Assembly: GCF_002706795.1 (NCBI RefSeq)
Contig: NZ_CP017705.1
Location: 1,274,501 to 1,338,500 of the forward strand
DNA from: Brevibacillus laterosporus DSM 25
GTDB taxonomy: Bacteria; Bacillota; Bacilli; Brevibacillales; Brevibacillaceae
DNA: 64,000 bases
Reading direction: 5' to 3'
In this document: positions 47,470-50,341 of the stretch, piece after piece
Layout: each line of letters starts with the position of its first letter
How positions within the stretch are numbered: the first letter of the stretch is position 1
Program-made: the position numbers and the translations under genes
Notes under the pieces: generated by a model
Seen by the model: only the letters and a program-made list of their open reading frames with translations
Told to the model about the DNA's origin: nothing
The model's database searches: none

Positions 47470-48231
47470 ATGACTACACTTATGTCTATGCCACAGGTTG
47501 ACGTGGTACGCCAACAGTTAATTTCTCATCCAATCTCTATTGCTATGCAAACACCTGAACGCGTTCGTACCTTTATGGAACACCATGTGTTCGCTGTATG
47601 GGATTTTATGAGTTTATTAAAACGTTTACAACTGGACGTAACTTGCACAAGTGTCCCTTGGCTTCCTGCTCCTCATGCTGAATATGCTCGTTTCATAAAC
47701 GAAATTGTGCTCGGGGAAGAGACTGATGAAGATGGCAATGGCGGATTTACCAGCCATTTTGAGCTGTACCTGCAAGCTATGAAGGAAGTCGGAGCTGATA
47801 CATCTAAAATTGAGCGTTTCCTTACATTGCTTGAAAGTGGTACCACTCCTGACGAAGCTCTAGCATTATGCGACGCTCCTCACAGTGTACAGCATTTTGT
47901 AAAACAAACCCTTCACTTGGCTAAAGAGGGAGGAACTCACGAGGTTTGTGCTGCTTTTTTCTTTGGTCGTGAAGATATTATACCAGACATGTTTCAGGTA
48001 CTTGTACAAGAACTGACTGCCAAAGGAGAAGCTCCTGCTTGTCTCCTGTATTATCTAAACCGTCACATTGAACTAGATGGAGATGAACATGGACCTTTAG
48101 CTGAAAAACTTCTAGCTTCTCTTTGTAAAGAAGATGACCAAAAATGGAAAGAAGCAGAAGCAACAGCTATACAAGCTCTCAACAGCCGCATTTCCTTATG
48201 GGATGGTGTCCTAGCAGATATTCAAAAATAA
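47470..48231 (+). CDS. DUF3050 heme-oxygenase-like protein
   Basis: A 253-residue all-helical protein. The pattern TPERVRTFMEHHVFAVWDFMSLLKRLQ, GEETDEDGNGGFTSHFELYLQAM, FFFGREDIIPDMFQVLV and YYLNRHIELDGDEHGPLA matches DUF3050, a heme-oxygenase-like fold. The His and Glu/Asp residues in HHVF, GEETDE, SHFELY and RHIELDGDEHG are spaced as in heme-oxygenase-like diiron oxidases, so a diiron oxygenase is plausible. The substrate is unknown. AAAGGAG precedes the ATG. It is single, with a strong terminator. Confidence 0.8.
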   Translation: MTTLMSMPQVDVVRQQLISHPISIAMQTPERVRTFMEHHVFAVWDFMSLLKRLQLDVTCTSVPWLPAPHAEYARFINEIVLGEETDEDGNGGFTSHFELYLQAMKEVGADTSKIERFLTLLESGTTPDEALALCDAPHSVQHFVKQTLHLAKEGGTHEVCAAFFFGREDIIPDMFQVLVQELTAKGEAPACLLYYLNRHIELDGDEHGPLAEKLLASLCKEDDQKWKEAEATAIQALNSRISLWDGVLADIQK

Positions 48232-48343: not shown

Positions 48344-49213
48344 TTAACGAGCTACAGCCAAGGTAGAGCTCTCTTCATTTGAATGCTCTAAAATACCACT
48401 ATCTTTCTTTGGTTTACCAGAAGCACTTCCAGTAGCCAACCCATAGGGAATGCACAGCGGCACACCACTACGAGGGTCTGGAATAATGTCAGCTTCAATG
48501 CCAAATACATCCCACAGCATTTGATGCGTCATGACCTCAGCGGGAGTTCCCTGAGCCATTACTTTTCCTTTTTTAATAGCAATAACATGATCGGCATAAC
48601 GAGTAGCATGGTTCAGATCGTGAACAACCATAACAATCGTACGCTTCTCTTCTGTATTTAATTTAGCTAGTAGCTGTAATACTTCTAATTGGTGAGCCAT
48701 ATCAAGGAACGTGGTCGGTTCGTCCAAGAACAGGATATCCGTCTGTTGCGCTAACGCCATAGCAATCCATGCACGTTGACGTTGACCACCTGACAACTGA
48801 TCGACTCCTCTTGTAGCAAATTCATCAATACCAGTAACTCCCAATGCCCATTGCACAATTTTTTTATCTTCAGGCGTCATACTTCCCATGCCCTTCTGAT
48901 GAGGGAAGCGTCCATAAGAAACCAATTCTTCTACAGTAAGTCCATCAGGAGCTACTGGATTTTGCGGCAGAATAGCTAAATCCTTGGCTACTTTACGGGT
49001 ATCCTGTTGGTGAATGGATTTACCATCCAAGAATACTCCGCCTTTTTTCGGTTTCAAAAGACGTGCCATCGTTTTTAGAATGGTAGACTTACCTGATCCA
49101 TTTGCACCGACCAGAGCAATGATTTTTCCATCTGGTAACGATATGTTTAAGTCTTCTACAATTAGATTATCGTTATAACCTATGTTTAACTGCTGTGTAT
49201 GTAAGCGAACCAT
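48344..49213 (-). CDS. Iron-siderophore ABC transporter ATP-binding protein
   Basis: A 289-residue ATPase of the FecE/FhuC type. It has Walker [13 protein letters not shown], the Q-loop in [26 protein letters not shown] (the siderophore-family signature), the [17 protein letters not shown] motif, Walker [16 protein letters not shown] and the H-loop [16 protein letters not shown]-terminal extension of about 35 residues is unique. It stands alone without permease or binding protein, so it probably energises permeases encoded elsewhere. A Fur box lies in its promoter. The start at 49213 is 6 bases after AAAGGAAG. Confidence 0.92.
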
Positions 49214-49272
49214 GATCATCTTCCTTTCGATGTCACGCTATAATATCCTGAAATATAATACCTTCCCATAAA

Positions 49273-49301
49273 ATGATATTGGTTCTCATTATCATTGTCA
49301 A
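49273..49301 (-). promoter_or_regulatory. Fur-regulated promoter of the siderophore ATPase
   Basis: TTGACA (49296-49301), 17 bases, TATCAT (49273-49278) on the minus strand. The Fur-like 19-mer 49281-49299 (GACAATGATAATGAGAACC) overlaps the -35 and spacer and matches the consensus at 14 of 19 positions. Confidence 0.7.
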
Positions 49302-49313
49302 ACATTTTCTATA

Positions 49314-49384
49314 AAAAAACCAATTAACAGGGGCATTGTTATCTGACTAGCAGACTAACATTCACCTTATTAACTGGTTTTTTC
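49314..49384 (-). terminator. Terminator of the yitT-like gene
   Basis: AACCAGTTAA and TTAATTGGTT pair with one mismatch around a long loop. On the minus strand TTTTTTATAG follows. Confidence 0.6.
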
Positions 49385-49385
49385 T

Positions 49386-50012
49386 TTACGCTGCACTGTG
49401 CGCCAGCTTGGTTTGTTTTTCTTTTGTACCGTATTCGTAGGTCCATGTAACCACTTTACCAGCGATTGAGACTGCTAAAAGTGTATACAGGACTTGAGGT
49501 ACTGGTAAGAAAAATAACGAAAGCAGCAACACAAGTACGTCAAATATTAATAAAACGGTACCTACTGACATACCCGTCCACTTACTTATGAATAGAGATA
49601 AAATATCATCTCCACCTGTTGCTCCCCCGAATCTAAGAACCAATCCCAGACCGAAGCCCGTGCTGATTCCAGACAATAAGACTGCGAGCAACATGGCATT
49701 GCTAAAGTCAAATACTAGCGGCGAGAAACGCTCACATAGCTCATAGAAAAAGGAAAAAGATGTCGCTGCTACAATGGTATTAATCAAAAACTTACGTCCT
49801 TTGATCATCATTGCAACTAAAATGATTGGAATGTCTAATGCTAGCATGGTAATAGACGGCGACCAATCAAAAGCGTATTTTCCAAGTAATGATAACCCCA
49901 CAAATCCACCTTCACTTAAATTATTCTGAAAGTTGATGTGGTAATAGCTAAAGGCCAATAAAAAAGTTCCCAGTAAAATCATGAAGGTTTGTTGGTATGG
50001 TTTTGTCCTCAT
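49386..50012 (-). CDS. YitT-family membrane protein
   Basis: A 208-residue protein with about five to six membrane helices. The start has QTFMILLGTFLLAFSYYHINFQNNLSEGGFVGLSLLGKY, matching the YitT/DUF161 core, with GISTGFGLGLVLRFGGATGGDDILSLFISKWTGMSVG as the second family signature. It lacks the soluble C-terminal DUF2179 domain of longer relatives. The transported substrate is unknown. A 230-base structured leader precedes it (see the regulatory entry). AAGGGGAA lies 8 bases before the ATG. Confidence 0.85.
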   Translation of the reverse strand: MRTKPYQQTFMILLGTFLLAFSYYHINFQNNLSEGGFVGLSLLGKYAFDWSPSITMLALDIPIILVAMMIKGRKFLINTIVAATSFSFFYELCERFSPLVFDFSNAMLLAVLLSGISTGFGLGLVLRFGGATGGDDILSLFISKWTGMSVGTVLLIFDVLVLLLSLFFLPVPQVLYTLLAVSIAGKVVTWTYEYGTKEKQTKLAHSAA

Positions 50013-50018
50013 CGAGGC

Positions 50019-50252
50019 TTCCCCTTTTCGTAGTTAGTTAGTCACTTTCTCCACTAACTACGAAGCAGGTCCTGTCAGGATCGCTTGTTTGTATCATAAA
50101 GCATCTCTCTTTCGTAGTTAGTGTTCACAGGTCAAGAGTGGAACGCTCTAACTACTACGCTACGTGTCTGAGAGATCAAACCGTTTCCAGATTGTCCTTC
50201 GCGGTAACATCACTATCCGATCCTTTCATTGTAAAGTTACAATTCCATTATA
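50019..50252 (-). promoter_or_regulatory. Riboswitch-like structured leader of the yitT gene
   Basis: A TATAAT -10 lies at 50247-50252 on the minus strand. In the transcript, AGGATCG/CGATCCT (50218-50224 with 50077-50083) close a multi-helix domain that contains ATCTCTC/GAGAGAT (50170-50176 with 50103-50109). Segment B (50052-50065) can pair either with segment A inside that domain (50109-50123) or with segment C (50027-50038), which directly abuts the ribosome site. This is an aptamer plus switch layout. I cannot match it to a known class. Confidence 0.6.
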
Positions 50253-50341
50253 ACATAAAAATCACTTCATGAATCAAGCAGGTGGTAATTTAGGCTCTTT
50301 TTTTATATTTTTTATTCATGTGATTACGTACTTTAAAAAAG

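Follow-up and report, generated by a model that had tools for sequence, protein, structure and literature searches.

The window analysed here is a stretch of 64,000 nucleotides from Brevibacillus laterosporus DSM 25 (contig NZ_CP017705.1, positions 1,274,501 to 1,338,500), and all coordinates below are positions within it. Read from the window sequence, a leader, its pairing arms and the yitT gene that follows all lie on the minus strand. A preliminary description of the locus, made from the letters alone, had named the downstream gene as YitT, in agreement with the Pfam match, and had described three arms, labelled A, B and C. We number four, A being 50155-50148 and our B, C and D being the A, B and C of that description. 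The features are:

50247..50255, minus strand: probable extended −10 promoter element TGTTATAAT, read from the sequence
50221..50227, minus strand: uORF1 Shine-Dalgarno GAAAGGA, from an alignment of 30 clusters
50160..50210, minus strand: uORF1, 16 codons, leader peptide MLPRRTIWKRFDLSDT-UAG, with a synonymous-change signature, preceding every readable short yitT
50170..50176, minus strand: 5′ side of the closing stem, ATCTCTC, within uORF1 codons D-L-S, pairing with GAGAGAT at 50109-50103 (7 bp)
50148..50155, minus strand: arm A, GTAGTTAG, directly 3′ of the uORF1 stop, 8 perfect bp with B and likewise 8 with D
50111..50123, minus strand: arm B, CACTAACTACGAA, 13 perfect bp with arm C (cognate test p = 7e-6)
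50103..50110, minus strand: AGAGAGAT, 3′ side of the closing stem and Shine-Dalgarno-like site of uORF2, about 7 nt from its ATG
50038..50097, minus strand: uORF2, MIQTSDPDRTCFVVSGESD-UAA, with Shine-Dalgarno, ATG and open frame, running through arm C and ending in the C-D loop
50067..50070, minus strand: anti-Shine-Dalgarno ACCT, adjoining arm C, with a predicted pairing to GGG in the yitT Shine-Dalgarno
50052..50064, minus strand: arm C, TTCGTAGTTAGTG, partner of B (13 bp) or D (12 bp)
50027..50038, minus strand: arm D, ACTAACTACGAA, adjoining the yitT Shine-Dalgarno, 12 perfect bp with C (cognate test p = 3.5e-8)
50020..50026, minus strand: yitT Shine-Dalgarno AAGGGGA, 7 nt upstream of the yitT ATG (50012)
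49386..50012, minus strand: short yitT gene, 208 aa, PF02588 (Pfam E = 2.5e-43), without DUF2179
49313..49384, minus strand: terminator-like hairpin 3′ of yitT (folding z = −5.4, T run)

Because yitT ends at the terminator-like hairpin, leader and gene look like a self-contained unit, whose gene neighbours showed no conservation across the genomes compared. In Brevibacillus (loci L007 and L083) the genes ahead of the unit are cobU-like and a B12-type ABC ATPase, a setting not kept in other genera. Beyond the hairpin in the window, a Fur-box-like GACAATGATAATGAGAACC (minus strand, 49270-49300) stands upstream of a FecE-like iron ABC transporter ATPase gene (48344-49219), and the gene adjoining the latter (47470-48231, plus strand) encodes a DUF3050 protein whose haem-oxygenase-like match is weak. 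The long YitT paralogues tested also carry PF10035 (DUF2179), the domain absent from the short YitT. YczE/YitT proteins have no known function (PMC4944035). Neither a solved relative nor a convincing fold match gives a YitT substrate, the AlphaFold model has a mean pLDDT of 80, and NCBIfam contains no model for YitT.

The uORF1 frame opens with an ATG at 50210 (minus strand) behind its Shine-Dalgarno and reads ATG TTA CCG CGA AGG ACA ATC TGG AAA CGG TTT GAT CTC TCA GAC ACG TAG. The sequence GAAAGGATC(A/G)GGAT at this ribosome site hardly varies among the 30 aligned clusters. Further upstream, TGnTATAAT/TATACT recurs at the same distance from uORF1 in leaders of the Brevibacillus group; a promoter consensus scan did not list the TGTTATAAT element and found no good −35 at 16-18 nt.

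A DNA search of 99 related genomes found the leader upstream of yitT elsewhere in the family and in two genomes belonging to other families, well outside the strain of origin. Translated, the leaders of these relatives give one peptide (MRPHRTIWKRYDLSYI, MCPHRTIWKRYDLSYV, MLPSRQIWKRFDLSYT; in most Paenibacillus MCPRRTIPQRTIWKRYDLSYT or close to it). A pattern scan of named species genomes returned at least 120 loci; among the matches listed, 111 are the leader and 9 are chance, and all listed leaders with enough downstream sequence are then followed by a short yitT, about 130-170 nt past the leader stop. At the listed leader loci with no yitT call, either the sequence ends too early or our script missed the YitT motif. 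Of 399 genomes from the class, 61 contain the pattern, and a reversed control gave 0. A search by YitT protein, which makes no use of the leader, located it before each short yitT in genomes that the pattern had missed, with altered residues (IWKQFDLSYI, IWKRCDLSYT). The leader precedes every readable short YitT gene lacking DUF2179 in Brevibacillus, Paenibacillus, Saccharibacillus, Aneurinibacillus and Baia, while nothing like it was found at 20 loci of long YitT genes. No plasmid match was found, and a single match on a viral contig proved to be an unrelated frame.

The preliminary description had placed an aptamer core at ACCGCGAAGGACAATCTGG…CTCTCAGAC, stretches that fall within uORF1 codons on the minus strand. 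On a minimum spanning tree of 43 distinct 14-codon ends, the uORF1 frame accumulated 69 synonymous and 35 nonsynonymous changes (69/104, with about 20% synonymous expected), against 5/93 and 17/74 in the other two frames. As the search pattern had fixed some codons, we tallied the unselected ones apart; they show 27 synonymous and 30 nonsynonymous changes, still above expectation. Most of the variation sits at codon position 3, and the ACCGCGAAGG stretch is written with other codons in relatives. Differences in uORF1 length between relatives amount to 15 nt (five codons) and keep the frame. Among the matches listed, 111/111 leaders terminate in UAG with a C behind it, their final residue being T, I or V without exception; the full signature, [IV]WK[RQ]x-DLS ... 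[TIV]-UAG, is present in all 111 copies and in the pattern-independent orthologues, indicating strong selection up to the stop codon. Sequence comparison thus identifies uORF1 as a coding leader ORF with its own predicted ribosome site and links it to short yitT.

In L059 and other Paenibacillus leaders, uORF1 contains a 15-nt tandem near-duplication, CCCCGAAGGACGATT / CCCCAAAGGACGATT (PRRTI / PQRTI), that does not occur in Brevibacillus; each 15-nt unit could also fold into a small hairpin.

The whole leader has an unremarkable folding energy (z = −1.8), and the case for its structure therefore rests on the arms and their conservation. The helices of the preliminary description are present in the window: the 7-bp closing stem (50176-50170 with 50109-50103), the pairing given as about 14 bases, which is CACTAACTACGAA with TTCGTAGTTAGTG over 13 perfect bp, and the perfect 12-bp stem of TTCGTAGTTAGT (50064-50053) with ACTAACTACGAA (50038-50027) adjoining the yitT Shine-Dalgarno. 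No perfect helix exceeded 11 bp in 300 dinucleotide shuffles, that length was reached once, and no shuffle contained two helices of at least 11 bp. A switching leader whose exclusive arms lead to the ribosome site is thus upheld, with four arms where three had been counted, GTAGTTAG, a competitor for arm B, having been missed.

To measure pairing in relatives we took the arm regions of 30 clusters (85% identity) by position and compared pairing with a cluster's own partner and with the partners of other clusters, an alignment-free design adopted for C:D because MAFFT misaligned arm D. Cognate pairing exceeded swapped pairing for A:B (p = 0.01), B:C (p = 7e-6), C:D (p = 3.5e-8) and A:D (p = 5e-7), values that are optimistic as the clusters are related. 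For A:C and B:D in the same clusters, own partners were no better than swapped ones (p = 0.54 and 0.57), which is what likeness in sense between A and C, and between B and D, would predict. Within A:B, ten sequences taken together show changes on both sides with pairing retained at 7 of 11 predicted pairs. Across the 30 clusters A:B, B:C and C:D covary, and cognate pairing together with the compensatory changes in A:B describes mutually exclusive arms, the last of which closes the yitT ribosome site. The anti-Shine-Dalgarno pairing next to arm C has equivalents in relatives (CCTC/GAGG).

In 28 of the 30 clusters arm B is followed by a Shine-Dalgarno-like site and an ATG whose frame stays open across arm C; this count is somewhat biased by our preference for open-frame ATGs where several were present. 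Across the 30 clusters this frame contains 0 stops, compared with 34 and 22 in the other two. In 10 clusters, among them that of the window, uORF2 ends 21-33 nt upstream of the yitT start; in the other 18 of the 28 it extends across that start, an overlap that could hinder as well as help yitT translation. Its peptide is scarcely conserved, so we read uORF2 as a relay and find no support for a role as a second peptide sensor. In the Paenibacillus leaders L058-L177, uORF2 starts ATGCGAAGGA... and a local AGGA...UCCU hairpin lies after arm B; the UCCUC of this hairpin could also pair with the yitT Shine-Dalgarno.

We modelled the effect of a ribosome on uORF1 by computing the cost of opening each Shine-Dalgarno site. 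With the end of uORF1 occupied, the mean cost over 30 clusters fell from 6.5 to 4.0 kcal/mol at the yitT site (p = 6e-5) and from 6.0 to 3.3 kcal/mol at the uORF2 site (p = 5e-5); a ribosome on arm C lowered the yitT cost from 6.5 to 3.0 kcal/mol (p = 8e-8). These p values are again optimistic, the clusters being related. A control ribosome placement did not release the yitT site in the 30 clusters (p = 0.44). In a codon-by-codon scan, release of the uORF2 site was confined to P-site positions within roughly the last four codons, whereas the yitT site was released gradually over the last seven, most strongly at the last. In the model, then, the family trend is that a ribosome at the end of uORF1 would release both sites, consistent with a ribosome halting on the stop codon or just short of it. 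Equilibrium folding of the window sequence alone left the yitT site closed with uORF1 occupied (3.8 to 4.0) and the uORF2 site unchanged (2.5 to 2.9), and only occupation of arm C lowered the yitT cost (2.0). For the window, the model accordingly needs either uORF2 translation or formation of B:C before D is transcribed.

We consider that the leader upstream of yitT is a leader-peptide translational attenuator, with a probability of about 85%, a figure that excludes the nature of the inducer. The best reading is a two-step attenuator with an ermA-like layout, driven by a candidate arrest peptide that would act close to the stop codon. Without inducer, uORF1 would be translated and its ribosomes would leave, whereupon the RNA would fold as A:B plus C:D (in several relatives A:D plus B:C), closing the Shine-Dalgarno sites of uORF2 and of yitT. 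Under some condition a ribosome would pause on the last uORF1 codons or on the UAG-C stop, covering arm A and the closing stem. Arm B, thus freed, would pair with C and open the uORF2 start; ribosomes on uORF2 would in turn unwind C, exposing D and the yitT Shine-Dalgarno, and YitT would be made. In this scheme we infer the ribosome arrest, the inducer, the relay by uORF2 and transport by YitT.

The alternatives differ in what would move the switch. A metabolite-binding riboswitch, with uORF1 incidental, is very improbable. In the first half of uORF1, nucleotides are conserved beyond codon need (no AGR for Arg, no TTR for Leu), as such an RNA might require, and pairing or codon effects could equally explain this. 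Against an aptamer stand the frame-specific synonymous variation, the frame kept across the 15-nt length difference and the invariant stop codon. Rfam matched no known class, glycine included: there was no gathering-score match in the window or 14 relatives, and sensitive scans of the leader and four relatives gave no relevant match. The supposed core consists of codons that vary mainly at third positions, and a ribosome on uORF1 accounts for the switch better than a ligand bound to RNA does. Attenuation by amino-acid starvation, where the ribosome awaits a scarce charged tRNA at a control codon, is also highly unlikely. The Trp codon is invariant, as are Leu and Ser codons, yet no codon is repeated in a run, conservation of K, D, L and S is as strict as that of W, and position −2 is Asp in the window's group. 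We rejected starvation at the Trp codon, as in the folding model a pause there leaves the switch, with both Shine-Dalgarno sites, closed.

UAG is an RF1 stop codon, and a UAG-C context is expected to terminate slowly. A leader that uses a weak UAG-C terminator to report general translation or RF1 status, with no specific ligand, would account for the invariant UAG-C, and a ribosome waiting at the stop sits where the switch opens. Slow termination alone would not, however, require I-W-K ... D-L-S to be conserved over several families, and base pairing could also constrain the C that follows UAG; we regard this explanation as improbable. The strict conservation of [IV]WK[RQ]x-DLS ... [TIV]-UAG-C suggests that the nascent peptide itself arrests the ribosome, probably at termination, and points to an arrest that answers a small molecule handled by YitT. 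The main candidates for the inducer are a metabolite and an antibiotic. At somewhat less than even odds we place a new ligand-sensing arrest peptide in Bacilli: within the ribosome tunnel the nascent ...RTIWKRYDLSYT would respond to a small cell metabolite and block RF1 at UAG-C, the relay ORF then switching on YitT as an exporter of that metabolite. Somewhat less likely is the same attenuator with another inducer, a ribosome-binding antibiotic that stalls uORF1 while YitT aids resistance, as in inducible leaders of the erm/msr type. The layout is that of erm leaders (PMC8274638), and MsrDL is a case of termination arrest brought about by an antibiotic (PMC10314930). A distant protein offers a weak lead: in Mycoplasma pneumoniae, three mutants selected with macrolides had differing missense changes in a protein of the YitT family (PMC10240068). 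The leader is nevertheless near-universal and vertically inherited in the Paenibacillus and Brevibacillus groups, with no plasmid copy found, unlike most mobile resistance genes.

Our literature search found no paper with the uORF1 peptide and none joining YitT and 'riboswitch'; for YitT and 'leader peptide' it returned genome papers only, which seem irrelevant. As far as the literature searched shows, the uORF1 peptide and the YitT target are new. Few ligand-sensing arrest peptides are known to us, and the present candidate occurs widely across two large families of bacteria, its peptide and stop codon strictly kept. Identifying its inducer would give the first handle on the cargo of the widespread YitT-family membrane proteins. 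The yitT leader also illustrates that a leader ORF can mimic a riboswitch aptamer.

Likeness to the glycine riboswitch (RF00504), which the core had been thought faintly to recall, is superficial and confined to short motifs; the leader gave no covariance-model match, and its motifs are peptide codons that are not kept as RNA. Arrest at a stop codon is known for TnaC, SpeFL and MsrDL (PMC8429421, PMC10314930), and SpeFL blocks RF1 (PMC8429421). The conserved uORF1 peptide resembles TnaC and SpeFL in its predicted capacity to halt the ribosome on the stop codon of the ORF that encodes it. A W-x3-D occurs in both TnaC and the uORF1 peptide but at different distances from the stop, and TnaC controls transcription through Rho, whereas the yitT arms are predicted to act on translation. 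MsrDL, the macrolide leader MYLIFM, undergoes antibiotic-dependent arrest at the stop codon of its leader ORF (PMC10314930), the position also predicted for arrest on uORF1; MsrDL differs in having six residues, in acting by transcription attenuation and in its sequence, unrelated to the uORF1 peptide. Both ermA and ermB have two leader ORFs (ErmAL1/ErmAL2 and ErmBL/ErmBL2), and in one model for ermA a stall on the first starts the second (PMC8274638). The yitT leader shares with them a short leader ORF, alternative arms, a sequestered main ribosome site and a second leader ORF, and differs in its unrelated leader peptide, in a target that is the membrane protein YitT rather than a methylase, and in a pause predicted at the stop codon.
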